Part shown: positions 4,350 to 32,249 of the stretch, piece by piece
How positions within the stretch are numbered: the stretch's first letter is position 1
How the letters are laid out: every line of letters begins with the position of its first letter
NCBI GenBank assembly: GCA_943704525.1
Contig: CALSCQ010001301.1
Coordinates: 1 to 32,249, forward strand
Source: Pigoraptor vietnamica
Taxonomy: Eukaryota > Opisthokonta > Filasterea
Reading direction: 5' to 3'
Length of the DNA: 32,249 nucleotides
Notes under the pieces: model-generated
What the model was told of the DNA's origin: nothing
What the model saw: the letters and a program-made list of their open reading frames with translations, nothing else
Database searches by the model: none
Translations under genes and position numbers: made by a program

Positions 4350-7300
4350 TCAGTGTATCCGCGTGAGCTCCTCGACAATCTTGATGAGCATGTCCACGCT
4401 GACGTCCTGCTCCGTGCCGTTGCTGCGAAGTGGAGAAACGCGTCAGTTGTGGTGTTGCATGCGGAACGCAACGGAGAAAGTCTACATACACACATAAATC
4501 ATACATACACACCTAAACACGCGCACACACATACACACACGCGCGCACGCACCGAGCAATCTTGAGCCCTTCGCACACGACGGCCATCTTTTCGCGGCTG
4601 AGGTCGAGGAAGCTCTCAATGAGATCGCCGTCGATGAAATTGCGCGCCTCGGACGTCTTGCGCTCATTCGAAAAGGCGCGCCAGGTGCACAGCGGTCAAG
4701 GAGGGACACATGCAACAGCAAGAGACGTAACGCGTGCGATGGCATAGGGAGGTGGGCCTGCTACAGACTAAAGTGACACACACTGCCTACTCTTCCCTCA
4801 GCACATCACGACACACACCGGCCCACGTGCGTGCATACACCCAACCCCTTCCCCTACGACAGCCATGCGCGGATATAAGTCGTGGCTGAAGCCGCCCACG
4901 CCGCGGATGACGCGCGTGAGGTTGTGCTGCACGCGGTGCAGGAAGGCGTACTGGTCGGCCGTGAGCGACGCGACGACGCCGAGCACGCCGTTGATCGTCC
5001 CGAATATTAGCGACGGCTGGATGGGGTTCTCGCTCTCCTCGGGCAGGCGCATCACCAGCGACCCTGCGTAACAGCCCCGCGTTACTCGCTTGCAGAAACA
5101 CACCCCAGCGCACACACAGCGGCCAACGCGAGCCCACAAGCAATCTTCGCGTCACGTAAAGAAAGAGACAGAGGCGGCTATTACGAGCAAATAGCAATCT
5201 GCGAGACACACACAATGAATGACATACGGAAACGATATAACCCACCGTGCCTGAACACGTTGACGTATTCTCCCAGGTGGTACTCGCCGACGACCTCGAG
5301 GCGCGCGCGGTCCTCGTCCGTCGCGGCGTCCGAATTGTGGCGGCACGTGAAGAGGTTGCCGCTGTTCTCAGCGCCCAAAAAGTGGTCGTCGTCGAGGATT
5401 TCGAGCGAGAGCATCCAGTTTGCGCTGCTGTCCCTGCAAGCGTGCGCGAAAGGGGGAGAAAAAAAACCGCGCTGCATCAATAAACTTTCCTCTAACAAGC
5501 GAAGACGCACACGGAACCGAATGGCCGGTGTGCACACAGCACGTTATCATCCACACTGCCTGGCCAGTAAGCGCATGCATGCCGAACTGCCTCGACGCCA
5601 ACAACAGTTGCGTCGCAGGGTCCCATACCCACCTCGCAATCTCTTCGATGGTGCCGCCGAGGGGCTTGTACACGCAGAGGCTGATCGAGTTCATCAGGTC
5701 ACCCACGGCGATGAATTCGCCGCGTGTCTTGACAATGATGGCGAGAATGTGTCCGCTGTGTCCGCACTCTGACTGCAGCTCCTTCGTGCCGTCCTCGAGG
5801 TCGGCCCACCGGAAAACGGCCACCTACGAAAGATGAGCAGGCGCATGTCAGCAAGGGTAATTAGGTTACAGGCAAACACGCACTCACGAAGCTCACGAAG
5901 AAAACACACGCGCGTACACAAACGCACACACGCGCGGACACGCGCGGCACTTGCCTTGCTGTTGATGCTCGCAAGCAGCTTTCCATTGAACGCGTTGAGC
6001 GAGTAACACGCCCCGCGAATCTCCTTCTCGGCCACTTTCACGAGGCGACCCTCCGCCACGCGAAGCACGATCAACCGGCCCTTCTTTGGCTCGTCGTCTG
6101 TCGGCAGCACAAGCGCCGTCCCCACCACATAGTACGGCGTCGGATCGCCCGCAAACGTCGTGGAGAGCAGCGCGCCGGGTTCCTCGCGCTCGTCCAGCTG
6201 GAACGTGTGCAGCGTCTCAAACGTCTGGTCGTCGATCAGTCGCACAAAGCACACGTTGTACTCGCGCCCGTCGGCGTCGACGGCGCTGCGCATCGTGGCA
6301 ACCGCAAACGTCCGCGTCGATTCCTGGTGCGCGATGCGGCGGGGCGTTTCGCCGAGGGGCACCGCGCGAATGTGCAGCTTCTGGATCTCGTCGATCGTCC
6401 CGATCGTGAGCGATCCGTCCGTCGCAAGCGCAAGGCTGTCGGGGAAGCTCTCCGAATTGAACGGGCAGACGTACGCGACCTCGCGGAGGTTGACGTTGGA
6501 GAAGAGGAGCTTGCGGTTGCTCGAATAAATGACCGACGGGCGGTCACTGCAGGCGAAGACATGGCGCGAGTTGCGCGCGTAGAACGACGTCAGGACGAGC
6601 GGCTGCGTGCCGAGGAGGACCTTCTTGCGCTCGCTCATGCGGCACGTGGCCGGGTCGAGCACAAACGACACGAGGGAGCCGTCGCCGAGCGCGCAGAGAA
6701 GATAGGCGACCCCCTCGAACGACGCGAGCAGGACGGAGCGGGGGATGATGTCACCGCCGATGACCTCGCGCGCCAGCGGCTCCAGGGTGGGCGCGCGCAG
6801 CACACGGACGCTTATGTCCGTCCACAGACCCACGGCGCACACGTGGGCGAGGCCGCTGTCGTCGAGCGGGCTGATGTCCACGCATGCGACCTCGTGCTCC
6901 ATCTGCGCATGGCCCGTCTCTCCGAGAGCGCCCTGCGCACGACCGACCAATGGGGTGAATTTCCACGCCCATGACACGCACCGCACAGCGGCCACACTCT
7001 CATGCAGACAATCGAAAAATAAAAATTAAAAATTAAAATTAAAATTGTGCGCTTTGCACGCTTGCACAGCAAGGTCCATGCGGCACCGAGTGCGCGCGCA
7101 CGCACCTGGCCAATCTCAATGTGGACGACGTGGCCGCCGCCCGTGGCAAGCAGAATTTGGCGGCCGTTGCACGATGCCACGTTGACCTTGGTGCCCGCAG
7201 GCGGCGCCCACTGCGCAAGCACCGCAAGCGACTCGGCGCTCACCAGCCGCACGCCGGCCTCGGTAATCTACGCGAGTGGCAACGACACGTGACGCTTCGT

Positions 7301-18898: not shown

Positions 18899-20322
18899 TA
18901 TGCAGCTGCTCGCAATATCAGGCTACCAATGCGCATGTTGGCAGCCGACGCCGGACCGACGGGCAATAAACGACCGGGGAAAACCCCAAAAACAAAATAT
19001 CCGCCCGCAACTGAAGGGCTCGGCCACCGCAACGCGGAGCTCCCCGTAGTCGCTGCCCCCCGTGGTCACTGCGGACAATCGCTCACGGCGACCACCGAGT
19101 TAACCTGAGCCGCGTACGTGACGGCGGACACGTGCGCGGACGTCGTCGGCAGTTGCAAAACGGCCGGCAGAGGCCGCTGGCTGACCAGTGAGACGTGGCG
19201 CCGCCGGCACGAGCAGCCACGGCAAGCAGCTGCTGTCAATGCGTGGCGGTGCGCGACGCTGCGGCCCTATCGGGGGCGGGAGACCGACGCCGTCCCCTGA
19301 GCCAGTACACCGACGCGTAGCCGTGGCTATTTGCCGCGGCGTGAATACAACTGAGGCAGTCGGCGGGCCGGGAAATCAATTTGCGACACGGCTCTGTAAA
19401 ACGCAAATGGCCCGGCGCACTCCAGTCCTCAGGCTCGCCAGGTCAGACAGCCGGCGACAACACACGACCCGGCCAGCCCTCCCCTGGCCGCACCGCCAAA
19501 CCGACTCCGTATGATTATTAATAGTCAAGAATGATTTCGGCGGTCGCCGGCGGAGCCCGGATCAGTCGCACGTGGTTAGACCAGGCTGAGCGCGGCCGCG
19601 TCAATTGAAAATAATCACACCGAAGTCAACTCCGCCCCGCCACTCAGTGTGGAAAAGCCCGTCAACCGACTTCTCGGCGAATGGACGCCGAACATGTTCA
19701 GCATGCAGGCGCCGGCGGTTGGGCTGTCGGTCGCCCTGACGGATTGACAGCGCGCCGACTCGTCACGTTATCTGAGTTTCGCCGATTCCGCGCCCGACGT
19801 CGACACTCAGCTGTTTCGAATCGAGAAGTCGGCAGACGATAATCTCTCAAATAAACCGGAGTGACTCGAGGCTTCGTGACCGATTGAACTGGCAGTTAAG
19901 CCGGTCGCCCGCGGGTGGCGGAGTTCGGCGACTTCGTCAACCGAAATCGGACTTCGCACGGAACTCCACCAACACTAGGGGAATCGCCCACACACCGAAA
20001 CAGATTGACGCAAAATCGAAAAGAGATTAAACCGATGGAGAGCGAGAGAGGAGGACGGAGCGCAGTCGCATGCACCTTGCGTTTTTTTTTTTTTTTTTTT
20101 TGGCACTGCCGCACACGGCCGAACGTGTCCGTAGGTCACGCACGCAGTCGCCAAATGGTCGTGCGCCACTTTCCCACTGATTTTTGGTCAGTTGAGTGCT
20201 CACTCAAACACCCCCATGGCCCCGCCCACTGCACGTCGACACCCGCTCCATACATTTTCCATACTAAAATAAACCCGTAATAACGCATCGCCGATGCCTC
20301 ATCGGGCGGCACTGGTCCGCGC
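18899..20322. other. Gene-poor stretch of distinct composition, no gene recognised
   Basis: About 1.4 kb upstream of the zinc-finger gene. Reading frames are short and give arbitrary-looking protein. The sequence is rich in CCGG, CGGC and CAGT/ACTG-type words and has no CA runs, unlike the rest of the window. It holds T20 at 20082-20101 and a + strand AATAAA at 20268-20273. An undetected + strand gene ending at that signal is possible, but I found no exon. Confidence 0.4.
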
Positions 20323-20417
20323 CTATTTATAGAACTCCGCCCCCCAGCGTGTACGCCACTCCTCCTTCTCCACCCGCGCGTGCAGCTTGCCCGCCACGTC
20401 GACGCGGAACCAACCGG
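20323..20417 (-). CDS. Probable last exon of an unrecognised minus-strand gene
   Basis: On the minus strand a good acceptor (TTTACGTTTTAG) is followed by a frame encoding GWFRVDVAGKLHARVEKEEW and RTRWGAEFYK, then TAG; the exon enters in phase 1. The peptide is charged, likely helical, and its codons look like those of neighbouring genes, unlike the DNA on either side. I do not recognise the family. No upstream exon was found in the 2 kb of odd composition to its right. It could be a chance frame. Confidence 0.4.
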
Positions 20418-22504
20418 CTAAAACGTAAAGAACCCGGCGACGCGCTTGTGCGCTCGGTGAATTAATCGTCGACAATCGTAGACTCGAAACCGGCGTCCGA
20501 TCCGGCGGTCCCTGAGCCACCGACTCCCCACCGGCGCGGCCGGCCCGTTGCCCGGCGGACGTGCCGTGACTGTCATGCCGATTGTGCCGCAACGGGTCTT
20601 AATTTTTGTGTGCCGAACTGCAGTGCCAGTTGGCGTCGTCAGTCAGTGACCGTCGCTTTTACTGAACTGACCGTGACGGCCAAGGGCTGCCGCAGGCTGA
20701 GAACTGTCATGCCGGCCGATTACTCCGATTCAGACGGTGACTACAGTACGCCGGGACCGCGTAATTTTGGCCGCTGATGACGGACGGCCGTACAGTCGGT
20801 GGGAAATGGCATGCCATTGGTCTCGGCGCGAGAGCTCCGCAGTAATCACCGTGGAGGCCAGCGACACATTAAACCCGGGACAGAATGATAGCGGGAGTCG
20901 CCAGCCGGCGCATAATGAGGCCGCTGGCCGACCGGACTCCGAGTTATCGCCGGCCACGACCAGGCAGTACCGGCGCCGATACGCCGGCGCCCGCCGGCGA
21001 TAACTCGTCACTGACAGAGGCCGTCGGTCTTTGGCGGCCGGCAGTAAGCCGCCGTATGCAGTCCGTCTCTGGGCAGGCCTCGGTGACGGAGCGGGCCGCT
21101 CGGCATCAGTCAACGCTCGGTGCTGCACTCAGTCAGTGCAGCCACGGTGGTGGCATTGCCGGCAGCCGACCGTTGAGTGAGCCGGAATGCCGCCAAGGCG
21201 GCTGCTGCAGCACGATCAGAGCCTTGCCGGCCGTGGTCAACCCGAGTCGCGGCAGCCGCTCATGGGCAAGGACAGCACTGCTCATCACTGAACTCGGTCC
21301 GAGTGCCGCGCCGTACGTAACTCCGTTCCCCGGGTAAGTCGGCCGACCGCGGCCGGAGCAGGATACGCATTTGATACTCCGAGGCTGAACCGGCCGCCGT
21401 TGTGAAATCTATAGCCTCACTTCTGATGCAGTGCATTTTTTAAACGGCAACCCAGTCTCGGCAGCGCCCGCGACTGTGGAGGCCGACGATCATACGTACG
21501 GATTCAGTGACTGACGGTGTTACTGACCAAGGCCAGTTGACGGCCTGTCAGTGGTCTGCATCTCGGGAACTGGCCGTCCGTCGCTCAGCGGCCGGCGCCG
21601 CAATCCGGGCCACACGGGCATTGAACGCGGCCGACCGGCGGCTTCCCCGAGCCGAGGGCTGACAGAGCCACAGCGGATTTTGACTGACCGGGCTGACTGG
21701 AAGCGGCTTAGTAGTAACTGCGCTGCTGTCTCGGATCCGATGTACTGTCTTACCAGTGGAAAAGAGCCGGCTGAGTCTGACTGTGCAGTCGCTCAGTCGG
21801 CATCAGTCGCCGATATCCGGCATGCACTGAGTGCTGTGGCGGCTGATCGGTGGGCCGGTTCGCCGGCACAGCCGAGACTCTGGTCGCCGCCCGAACTCAG
21901 CCGGCATTCGGAAAGGCCGTCATGGTGCAGTTGGGCCACCGGCGGTCCGCGCCCGGGTCAGTCAAACGGGCGCCCCGCGGCGAGTCCAGCAGCCATTGGC
22001 CGCCGGCCGGGAACTCCGACGGAGGGAAGCTGACATGCTGAGTTAACTTTGTCAGTTTATCCCGACAGTTGTGATTATTGTAAGTGGTACGGCTGCGGCC
22101 GTTCGGTAACTGAATAATGACGCCGCCGGCCGGAATCAAGTGAACTCACCCTGCGGCACCGAATTGACTCAGCGCGACGGGCTCTGACAGTCATGCGCAC
22201 TGACTGAGTGTGCCCGCAGACCACGACTCCCCAGTTCACTGGCATGATCGGTGGCCCCGTTTCGCTCGTAACCGGTGATCTCCCCCTGACCGGCCGTCCG
22301 GCGCTCCCCGAGTCTCGCTCAGCACATTGTGAAAAGCCGCCGCCCGGCAGGCGCCGGCGGTCAGTAAACTGTTGCGGCTGCCGGCTGAGGCACGGGCACA
22401 CAGCACAGCGGACTGACTGCTGGACGGCAGGTCGAATAATTTTGTTGGCAATCGGATAAAGATGTCGGGCGGTGCGGAGCAATCCGTTCAGTATTGAGTA
22501 CTGC
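20418..22504. other. Gene-less stretch of distinct composition
   Basis: About 2.1 kb with no credible exon on either strand. It has dense GCCGGC/CCGG and CAGT, TCAG and TGAC words, few GCGC words, and no microsatellites. It could be the long intron(s) of the minus-strand gene whose terminal exon lies at 20323. Confidence 0.4.
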
Positions 22505-22800
22505 TTAACCTCCTGTTAGCATCAAAGCCCAAATTGGGCTCCGTGCGTCAACCCCATCAATGTCCAACCACGCCAAGGGACGGGGGATTCGCCTGATTGG
22601 CTGATGACGTGTAAAATTTGATGGCGGACAAAAGCGTGAGAAGTATGCAAGGCATGGCAAACACGAGCCGTTACACTCCGAGGAGAATGAAACATTGCCC
22701 CCGACTTTTTTCAAACAATAGAGTGGAGTCAAAGGGACGCGTCCATGGGCGACACGTGTGCGCCGAATCGCTGCAACGGATGGATGGTCGTCGAGGCGAT
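22505..22800. promoter_or_regulatory. Island of ordinary composition, possible divergent promoter
   Basis: About 300 bp that lacks the CCGG/CAGT texture on both sides. It contains GATTGGCTGATGACGTG (22596-22612): an inverted CCAAT box next to a TGACGT half-site, a common promoter pair. A + strand ATG at 22621 opens about 60 codons of basic peptide (MADKSVRSMQGMANTSR) that may be a first exon or noise. Confidence 0.35.
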
Positions 22801-23311
22801 GCGGTGACCCAGTGTCGTTGACTTCGGCCGACAGTGGGCAGGCTGCCGCCCGAGCACTACCGACAGTACGGCTGAGTGACGAGTCAACAGCGTGCACCTC
22901 TCAGTCCCATCTCAGTCTACGTTGCGTACTTCTGCACCCCCGGCCCGATTGTCTCAGCCGGCGGACTGATTTTAATCGGCCAGAACCGGTCCGACAGATT
23001 GAGGTCCCTCACACAGTCGGCCGCCGCGGTTACGTTTTAGGTGCCACGCCGCGGTGGCTTGGCTACACGGCTGAACCAGAGCGCGTCAATCCCGCCCGGT
23101 TGGGAGCATTGGGCGGCTAGAGGGGCGGACCACGTCAATCGGCAGCTCTACTTAGAATATTTAGGCGCACGGCCGCGACGGTTCACAAATCTCACTTGCT
23201 AAGTCAAGCCTGCCCGCCCCGGCGTCTCACCGGCGGTCAGTTACCCGTTACCGCGTCCGTCCATCACTGCTCAGCCCTATCATTTCGTGTTGCTCGAAGT
23301 CTCCTCTTCGG

Positions 23312-26300
23312 ATGGGGCGGTTGGAAATTTGCGTGCCGAATGGCGGCGCGTCCGTTCGCCCCGGCGAGAACATTGGGGGATGGGTCGACGTGTATTCGAA
23401 CAAAGGTGCACGCATGCGCCAGCTCACGGTTCGCTTCGCGGGGAAAGGTTCGTTGTGGGGCATGTCACCCGGACACTGCCGTGGCTGTTCATTAAGCGCC
23501 ATCGTGGTTGCCTGTCCATGCCACACATTGACAGCTACTTGCCGTGTGAATGGTCAGGGTCACGAACGCCTGAGTGACGCGTGCAGCAGTGCAATTGTCG
23601 TGGGGCTCGGCAGTTGACTGTCGTCTGTCGTGGTCATGACAATTGAACTGAATGCATTGGGTCGACTGCGCCGGGGGCAGACGAACCCGAACTGAATGCC
23701 CGGCTGCAATCTTGACTTACTAATGAAACTTCTGACTAAGTCTCTAACTGCTGCGCAGAGTGTGCGACCGTTCCACCGCCCGATGCGAATCCCAATTCTC
23801 CGCGGCAGTCTGTCCATTGTGAGTCAGCGGCTCGGTCGGCCACTGTTATATTGTGCTCGGCTGATGAGTCGCCGCTCGTCAATGCGTCTGTTCAATCGCC
23901 TCTGACTCGTGTCTCCGTCTCCGTTTACGTTTTGCCTGGTTACATTGATTTCTATTGTCCGACAGGCCGGATCAACCCGGCGGCAGACAGTACATTCTAG
24001 ATCTTGTCTGTGACGTGCCACCTGGCATGGCGTTGATTTCTCCTGAATCCTCTCCGTCTGACGTGTTTTAAAGTGCTAACGGCATGGATTGCGTCCCGTT
24101 CGCAGTTTCCGAGGTGGACACGAAAATAGTTAACGCACAGGTGAGTGCGAAGCCGACAACATTGGATTAAGAACATTCTGTCTGACTCAGCAGCTATTAA
24201 TTATATCAGTGAATAGATATTAGCGGCCTGATTGAAGCGACTGTGCAGTAACAACTGCTGCGACAGTAACTGTTGCACTGCCGGCAATGTCTTTCACTAA
24301 TTTAACTACGATGCATGCCAATGGCGATGGCCGTTTTCCTGCGCTTGCAGTCGGATCCCGTGCGGCTGCCGTCCGGACTTCAGCGTTTTGCATTCACGGT
24401 CCGTGTTCCCGAGGGACTCCCGCCCACCCTTCGCCTCCCATACGCGTCCATCCAGTATGAACTCACGGGTGGGTGACTGGCGGGCGTGAAGCCGTCATTT
24501 CGCTACTGGGGCCGTTTCACCGTCAGTCCGTCGGCGGTGAAGTTATTTGATAATTGTGTTGTCGGCTAACGAAGGGCAATGCCACTGGCATTGACACGTC
24601 ACTCCTTCGAGGTATTTACTAAATTCTGTTAATTCGGTGTCTTGACAGTCGTGACTCACTGATTTTGAAATCCACTTCCAACCGATGATTCACAGGGATC
24701 GCCGTGGTCGAGTCAAAGTATGGCTTCTTCGAGGGCCGCTTGAAAGAGCGCGTTGCATCGGTGGCTGTTGAGGTGTGTCGTCCCCGGCCGTTGCAGTACA
24801 GTTATAGCCGACCGACGGACTGCGCTTGAAATTGTTGATGACCGCCAGCTGCATTCTGACTGGATCAGTCGGTTTGGGGTAACGTCGGTGCCATTCGCAG
24901 GTGCTCCCAGGAGTGATCGACCAGGCCATCTTCACCAACTTCCGCCACCCGGTCATAGGAAACCAGCGCAAGGACTTCTCGTGAGTGTCAAACGGTGTGA
25001 TGTTGATGGTGCGCAAAACAGTGAGCCTCCGGCAGCGCCTGACCGCCGTTTGCCGAGATCTAACGGCCGCCGTCGGCGTCTCTCCTGGCCCTGTTATATA
25101 TAATAGTCATGGGTGCGCATTGTACGGACTCGATGATCTTAATGGCCGCGATGCACTCAGGTTGCCGGCGTCTGGCAGCGCGACGCTTGAGGTCATAGTT
25201 CCGCGCGGGTATTACTTCCCCGGCGAACAGATTGAGCTCCAGATTCGAGTGTAAGTGCAGTCGGTGACTGCGCATTGACAGTCTTCATTCCTCGGCGGCT
25301 TACGGTAGAGCTAACTGGACCGTACATTCGTCACCACACAGCCAGAACTATTCGCAGCGCAAGATTGAATACGTCAAGTGCTACTTCAGCCGCGAAGTGA
25401 CCGTGACTGTGAATGGCGTCGCGTGAGTTGCGGCTGGTGTCGTCAATCAGTGTGATTGCATTGATCGCTGTAATAAGGCAATCGTTCGCGGTGAGTCTCA
25501 CGACAACATTCATCCAGGTACCGGCGGCAGGAGCGTCTGCTGAAGCAGCGGCTCGAACAGGTCGTGCGCCCCAAAACGCACGCGTTCATGACGCTGTTCA
25601 TTCCGTGCGCATCCCCCGTGGGTTCCGTGTCCTGCCACTCGCGCCTTATCGACGTGCGCTTCACGGTGAGCGTCACTCTCATAACCACTAGCAACGTCAC
25701 TCAATCGATAGAACCAGCCGCAGGGCATTCAATGTACGGCATGTTGTTTATCGCTTCACGCTCCCAGGTGTCTGTCCGTCTCGGCGTGGCGTGGGCCAAG
25801 GACGTCGCCACGACCGTCCCCATCGAGGTGGTCGCGCACCCTGTCGTTCCGCCGCGTCCAGTCCAAACCGGGGCACAGCCGACTCAGCAGGCGCCGGTGG
25901 GTGGCCTTGTGGGCGCGCCCCTCGTGCGCGAACCCGAGGGCTACGGCCCATCGACGTTGGGGCTTCCCGTGCCGGGGACCGAGACGCACCGCATGGTGGT
26001 CGGAGGCCTGGCGGCTCCCTCCGCGCCGCCGTTAGGGATGCGCGCGCTCGTGGGTGGTGCAGGCGCGTCTGGCGACTCGGCGGCCTACCCGCAGCTGCTG
26101 AGCGAGCTGAACTCGCGGCTGCCGGGCGGTGCGTGCGGAACAAAACCCGAAGTGTGCCGTCCGGACAAGTCGCGCAAGCCGAGCGTCGCGCCGCGTCCGC
26201 AGCCACGCGACGCGCAGGCACAGCCGACGGTGCCTCCGCGTGGAATGTACCCCGATTTGCGCGCCGTCGAACACGAACACAGGCACATGCAGTACGAGGA

Positions 26301-31172: not shown

Positions 31173-32132
31173 TCACTTGGGCGGCTCCTCGTACTTGTCG
31201 ATGACGGCGCGCATGCTGGTGGCCGACTGCTTGAGCTGGTTCTCTTCCTCCGGGGAAAGGGGCGGCTTGAGGGTTTGCTTGATGCCGGCGTGGCCAAGCA
31301 CCGCGGGGAAGCTGAGGCACACGCCCAGCTCGGGGATGTAGTGCGAGAGGGGGCGCACGTGACGGAGGTTGAAGATGATGGATTCGCATATGGATGCCGC
31401 GCAACCCGCGATGCTGCGAGGACAGAGAGGAGGGTGATGTCAGCAAGAGTAGCAAGCTTAAGAAGTGCTACACTCGCTATCACAGTCGTATCAGCGGTGT
31501 ATGCAGCGATAGGGCAGGCCACTCGATAGGGCAGGCCACTGGCATACTAACAACGACGTGAGGAAGCGCACGCACCCAAAGTACGTCGCGCACACTGGCA
31601 TACTAACAACGACGTGAGGAAGCGTACGCACCCAAAGTACGTCGCGCCCTTGAGCTCGATGATCTTGTACGCCTTGTTTTTGACGTCCTGCGCCAGCTTG
31701 TCCCGGTCCATCTCCTTAATCGCGGGGAAGTCCAGCAGCGGCGTCCCTCCCACGTGCGCAGACGACCACGCCACAAACTGGCTGTCGCCGTGCTCCCCCA
31801 ACACGTACGCGTGCACCGCCGTCTCGGCAACGTCCAGCTTGTGCGCGAGCTCACCACGGAGGCGCGCCGAGTCGAGGAACGTGCCGCTGCCGAACACCTG
31901 GCCCTGCGGGAGTCCGCTGAGCTTCTGCGCAAAGTACGTGAGGATGTCGACGGGGTTGGCGATGAGGAGGAGCACCGTCTCCTTCTTGAATGGCTTCATC
32001 GACTCGATGACCGACGAGAGAATCGCGCGGTTGCGGCCGATGAGCTCCACGCGCGTCTCTCCGGGGCGCTGCTTGGCGCCTGCCGTGACGATCACAATGT
32101 CGCACTGGCCGGCCTCTTGCGGAGTTCCAGAC
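31173..32132 (-). CDS. L-lactate dehydrogenase, C-terminal two exons (partial, leaves window)
   Basis: NAD-dependent interconversion of pyruvate and lactate. Exons 31632..32132 and 31173..31413 (complement); the junction restores ATYFG-IAGCAASICESI. Visible motifs: VIVTAGAKQRPGETR, in which Gln at the position equivalent to 102 marks lactate rather than malate specificity and the last Arg is the mobile-loop Arg; ANPVDILTY; GSGTFLDSARLR with substrate-binding Asp and Arg; VLGEHGDS with the catalytic His; and the C-terminal SPEEENQLKQSA helix. The N-terminal GxGxxG nucleotide-binding part lies past the right edge, beyond a (TG)n intron. The Q-for-R call separates it from LDH-like malate dehydrogenases but was made by eye. 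Confidence 0.93.
31508..31648. repeat. Nested tandem duplications covering the LDH splice donor
   Basis: GATAGGGCAGGCCACT occurs at 31508-31523 and 31525-31540. Directly after, a 56-bp unit is repeated at 31538-31593 and 31594-31648 with one substitution. The right-hand unit contains the end of an LDH exon and its GTGCGT donor, so the intron holds a second copy of the exon tail (ACGTACTTTGG) and donor 56 nt downstream. Confidence 0.88.
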
Positions 32133-32135
32133 CTG

Positions 32136-32249
<114 letters not shown>

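Follow-up and report, generated by a model that had tools for sequence, protein, structure and literature searches.

In splicing, the donor of U12-type introns and the U6atac element that recognizes it rank among the most conserved signals. At this locus, a DDB1 gene is interrupted by an AT-AC sequence whose donor departs from the usual one at two positions. The question was whether this is a genuine U12-type intron, and what in the same genome could read such a donor. The window, meaning the whole stretch of DNA analysed (32,249 nt), corresponds to C532, one of the 1395 contigs in an assembly of 32.5 Mb, and its genes mark it as eukaryotic. The donor shift probably co-evolved with U6atac in a lineage-specific manner, and perhaps with U11 too, as judged from the sequences described below.

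The AT-AC intron of DDB1

The intron occupies 4685..4876 on the minus strand (192 nt, phase 2). Read on that strand, its junctions were ...CACGACTT/ATATCCGCGC...CCTCCTTGACCGCTGTGCAC/CTGGCGCG..., and joining them gave a gap-free DDB1. The 5' splice site ATATCCGC (4869..4876, minus strand) has the form RTATCCGC, the commonest donor found in this genome. The branch site CTCCTTGAC (4695..4703, minus strand) places the branch A at position 4696, which is 11 nt from the intron end, and was among the listed genome matches of the CTCCTTRAC search (C532:4685-4703). The 3' splice site GTGCAC (4685..4690, minus strand) was read directly from the sequence, and inspection found no AG between the branch site and the acceptor. 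The upstream exon (SLVMRL...GGFSHD; 4877..5063, minus strand) had its 5' edge (CGCAG/GGTC) judged by eye, and the downstream exon (...LKIAR; 4553..4684, minus strand) was defined by homology and frame. The next intron, GTGCGTGC...CTTCGCAG (4423..4552, minus strand), looks major-type with its donor GTGCGTGC; the frame was kept there by several cut points, of which the GT-AG option was chosen. The last exon, up to the stop (4350..4422, minus strand), was assigned by frame.

Against PDB, the spliced protein matched DDB1 in 39 distinct sequences, with E values from 6.7e-28 to 1.3e-27. Both printed alignments, including that with human DDB1, ran without a gap over the junction, which by our count corresponds to roughly residue 1072 of the human protein in 10ay_C numbering. 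Pfam CPSF_A also spanned the junction after splicing (4.5e-18). With a donor beginning ATATCC, a TCCTTRAC branch site near the 3' end and a conserved protein restored, 4685-4876 is almost certainly a real U12-type intron, and we infer that it is spliced in the organism. The sequence-only reading had proposed an AT-AC U12-type intron here, and removal of the stretch from ATATCCGC through CTCCTTGAC to GTGCAC did rejoin DDB1 without a gap relative to the human protein; the branch A, the acceptor and the lack of an AG alternative were all seen as it had described them. Its ATATCC donor likewise stood. Its treatment of that donor as an ordinary U12 donor did not, since the full donor is ATATCCGC and not ATATCCTT, differing at +7 and +8.

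U12-type donors across the genome

Donors were surveyed by anchoring on branch sites and leaving the donor free. The pattern TTCCTTRAC N6-12 YAS matched 102 times in the genome and 158 times in the reversed control, so that many of its matches must be due to chance; the CTCCTTRAC set gave 149 matches against 258. What exceeded chance was the branch site paired with a donor motif, not the branch-site word alone. Eighty-eight distinct TTCCTTRAC sites were examined (C1356 and two unlisted sites were left out, and the remaining matches overlap the same sites). At 25-300 nt upstream of these 88 sites, there were 15 sense and 0 antisense occurrences of RTATCCGC, with 0.8 expected from the background rate, and RTATCCTT occurred once. 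When the range was 25-600 nt, RTATCCGC was found 16 times versus 1 in antisense and RTATCCTT twice; at 700-1300 nt from the sites, RTATCCGC was found 4 times. The second set, made up of the first 60 distinct listed CTCCTTRAC sites of the 149 matches with the window's own excepted, lent weak support (RTATCCGC 4 sense versus 2 antisense).

For protein support, candidate introns were excised by pairing AT starts with AC ends or GT starts with AG ends, and the resulting reading frames were searched for protein matches. Eighteen introns, that of DDB1 and 17 more, were supported by matches across the junction; 6 were AT-AC and 12 GT-AG, their lengths were 80-523 nt and the branch site lay 10-21 nt from the intron end. 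Fourteen carried RTATCCGC and were assigned to DDB1, an IMP3-like S4 domain, PIH1_CS, AP-1 mu, urocanase, LSG1, MCM_bind, EXOSC1, RasGEF, CYFIP, SHQ1, PDE, HIT and UBL5. Other donors were carried by the introns in a cation-pump C-terminal domain (GTATCTGC), SGF29 (ATATCCCC), CAMSAP_CKK (GTATCCAC) and ALG6/8 (GTATCCGA). Some of these names are our own, taken from the protein family or from the top-scoring PDB chain.

The 14 supported RTATCCGC introns came from 21 candidates. Two (L018 and L025) had no Pfam match and were left uncounted, as were L033, which lay outside the scan, and L134, L147, L150 and L183, for which the fetched flank was too short. For donors of other forms, 51 site/donor pairs were inspected, and 10 with open frames were picked by eye and scanned, of which L024, L027, L040 and L092 were counted as supported. 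L023, a possible ATATCCTT intron, had a Myb match just below the cut-off and entirely downstream of the junction; L035 had a desaturase match below the cut-off and barely at the junction; L088 had weak sub-cut-off matches only; and L028, L048 and L093 were without a protein match. All six were left uncounted.

Among the 18 supported introns the donor began with RTATCC in 17 and with RTATCT in one. Position +7 was G in 16/18 and +8 was C in 17/18; GC stood at both positions in 15/18 and TT in 0/18. The U12-type donor consensus of this genome has thus very probably shifted from RTATCCTT to RTATCCGC. The same counts could arise in another way, namely from ordinary U12-type introns in a GC-rich genome whose +7 and +8 drifted to GC, the change in U6atac described below being unrelated, an assembly error or a feature of a pseudogene. 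The window, at 60% GC, fits such drift. However, GC followed RTATCC in only 8 of 49 background occurrences, the DDB1 donor itself among the 8, a rate far from that of the supported introns (14/17 versus background, p = 4e-9), and positions +9 and +11 to +14 remained mixed, though +10 was C in 12/18.

Minor spliceosome RNAs and the reading of the donor

Three minor spliceosome snRNAs scored above their Rfam cut-offs: U12 at 73.8 bits, U6atac at 81.4 bits and U4atac at 64.0 bits. One copy of each was found among the best-scored candidates (for U6atac, the best 46 of 652); as only the best candidates are scored and the assembly may be incomplete, further copies are possible. U12 retained its branch-site reader GUAAGGAAAAUAACG. 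CENATAC (PF14968) was present in four pieces, all on contig C747, the best at 59.2 bits; in human cells it is described as promoting the splicing of AT-AN minor introns (PMC8280824). A zf-U11-48K match (PF05253, 28.2 bits) was non-specific, an archaeal control also being above the cut-off. The sequence-only reading had expected a retained minor spliceosome and had suggested a genome search for U12, U4atac and U6atac, which recovered all three, with CENATAC in addition; the U11 part of that expectation was not found.

Nucleotides 1-29 of U6atac equalled the Rfam consensus at 26 of 29 positions. The exceptions were nucleotides 12-14 (AAG to GCC), inside the donor-pairing element, so that positions 12-16 read GCCGA versus the canonical AAGGA. 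The chance that three random changes among 29 positions would all fall inside the five-nucleotide element 12-16 is 10/3654 by our own arithmetic. The RNA ends in UUUUUU and was computed to fold with the U4atac of the same genome into a long helix; together with the 26/29 agreement, this argues against a pseudogene or an error. The U6atac pattern GTATGANNNNGAGAGAAGGTTAGC went unmatched when contigs of prokaryote genomes and of viruses were searched.

Suppressor genetics in CHO cells paired U6atac GG14/15 with intron CC5/6 (PMC4980772), and this register places G12 of the present U6atac opposite +8 C and C13 opposite +7 G. Over the 18 introns, the genome's own U6atac could form 33 of 36 pairs at +7 and +8, and the consensus U6atac 0 of 36. 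Four of the five pairs at +4 to +8 were available to the own U6atac in 15/18 introns. Among the supported introns and in the U6atac found, the canonical combination of TT at +7/+8 with AAGGA did not occur on either side. One of the three changes was uncompensated, as C14 stood opposite C at +6 in 17/18 introns and opposite T in one; it may be that U11 alone reads donor +6, or that C14 is erroneous. The computed pairing energies of the own U6atac were -2.9 kcal/mol on UCCGC, +3.1 on UCCUU and -9.1 on UCGGC, and those of the consensus U6atac were -3.3 on UCCGC and -6.0 on UCCUU. By these calculations, the own U6atac would reject UCCUU and would hold UCCGC only about as well as the consensus RNA does. 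Its best computed partner, UCGGC, was not carried by the introns.

Both the uncompensated C14 and the energies on UCCGC, which do not favour the own over the consensus U6atac, speak for drift toward GC. A chance match of the two changed positions is estimated at about one in nine to sixteen, so the argument for co-evolution leans also on the concentration of the changes on both sides. Given the background counts and the intact U6atac, drift with an unrelated or spurious U6atac change is an unlikely account of the data.

Under co-evolution of donor and U6atac, U6atac would have changed at the nucleotides facing +6 to +8 as the donor consensus moved from RTATCCTT to RTATCCGC. The U11/U12 di-snRNP would bind the donor and the branch site, with U12 pairing to CTCCTTGAC. 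U6atac would then replace U11 and, as we infer for the cell, pair as U4-A16, C5-G15, G7-C13 and C8-G12, after which the AT-AC intron would be excised with the help of CENATAC. Removal of the DDB1 intron by the major spliceosome has a precedent in the major-type AT-AC introns described in human (PMC8280824); the donor ATATCC, the long branch site with its A 11 nt from the intron end, the minor snRNAs in the genome and the 17 similar introns make it very improbable here. Least probable of all is a chance motif, with other splice sites used to join the exons of DDB1, since, although branch-site words alone were no commoner than reversed words, the join restored DDB1 without a gap and the same motif pair restored other proteins.

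Two further observations concern U6atac. Its locus (L002, minus strand 1501-1619) lies, by eye, head to head with a gene resembling an X-family DNA polymerase. Its G10 could pair with the +10 C present in 12/18 introns.

The ordinary U11 5' end is AAAAAGGG. The Rfam U11 model, at default settings and at E 10, gave no match in the genome, in a search where none of the control genomes could serve as a positive control for U11. A U11 core pattern gave, with at most 3 mismatches, 39 matches versus 47 in the reversed control; loci were given for 30 of the 39, none of which had an Sm-like site (one expression) 40-160 nt downstream, and four matches inspected by eye were unconvincing. The U11-like pattern GCGG...AATTTTTGG matched 50 times versus 29 in the control, and none was convincing among the 21 of 50 rows with letters (some only up to letter 80). 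A pattern for a U11-like RNA starting with GCGG, namely GCGG N0-4 TTCTG N55-85 TTTTTGG, gave 5 matches versus 0 in the reversed control; these pattern-level candidates lie at C69:11688, C580:21156, C803:4773, C811:11043 and C1022:16587.

Known systems and the reach of the change

The introns described here resemble canonical U12-type introns in their AT-AC and GT-AG classes, the TCCTTRAC near the intron end, the dedicated snRNAs and CENATAC. They differ in the donor, which is printed as the consensus RTATCCTTT in PMC2846911 and is mostly RTATCCGC here. An EST study of Acanthamoeba castellanii identified three U12 introns (PMC2846911). By the counts given there, the RTATCCTT rule was obeyed in 0/1 AT-AC and 1/1 GT-AG introns under Burge and in 0/3 GT-AG introns under Sheth, and a C-rich stretch after the donor was reported, its meaning unknown. 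The likeness to the present genome, by description only, lies in the few introns, the rule-breaking donors and the C-rich stretch, here at +9/+10. However, the account in the available part of that source speaks of a consensus donor and draws no link to U6atac. In a survey of more than 3000 genomes, twelve introns of Acanthamoeba were called minor; under the main test of that survey, not one was conserved in human or in Protostelium (PMC10639083). Physarum polycephalum and the other unusual minor-intron genomes it treats share with ours lineage-specific minor-intron features in protists; the available text deals with intron numbers and phases, terminal dinucleotides and the loss of snRNAs, and holds no matching change of donor and U6atac (PMC10639083). 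Another parallel is the P120 suppressor, in which U6atac GG14/15CC compensates donor CC5/6GG (PMC4980772). Both cases concern one and the same element of U6atac together with the donor, but that change was engineered in CHO cells at +5/+6, whereas the present one is natural and at +7/+8. No report of a natural co-change of U6atac and donor was found in the literature searched, mostly below full-text level.

The balance tips slightly toward a natural recoding in which U6atac and U11 changed together and most U12-type introns followed, so that programs trained on RTATCCTT to find introns would overlook them or score them too low, here and in relatives. The survey of more than 3000 genomes used intronIC (PMC10639083), whose matrices were derived from human introns (PMC7367187). 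If the recoding is true, surveys that score introns by human-derived matrices may count too few minor introns in lineages of this kind. If both sides moved, the genome would illustrate a joint change of code by a group of introns and a single RNA gene, and related species would make this testable.

Elsewhere in the window, two stretches stood out by eye. The texture of 18900-25800 was unlike the rest, with few CA repeats and many GCCG and CAGT-like words, and a long CA repeat at the end (32130-32249) lay inside an apparent lactate or malate dehydrogenase gene.
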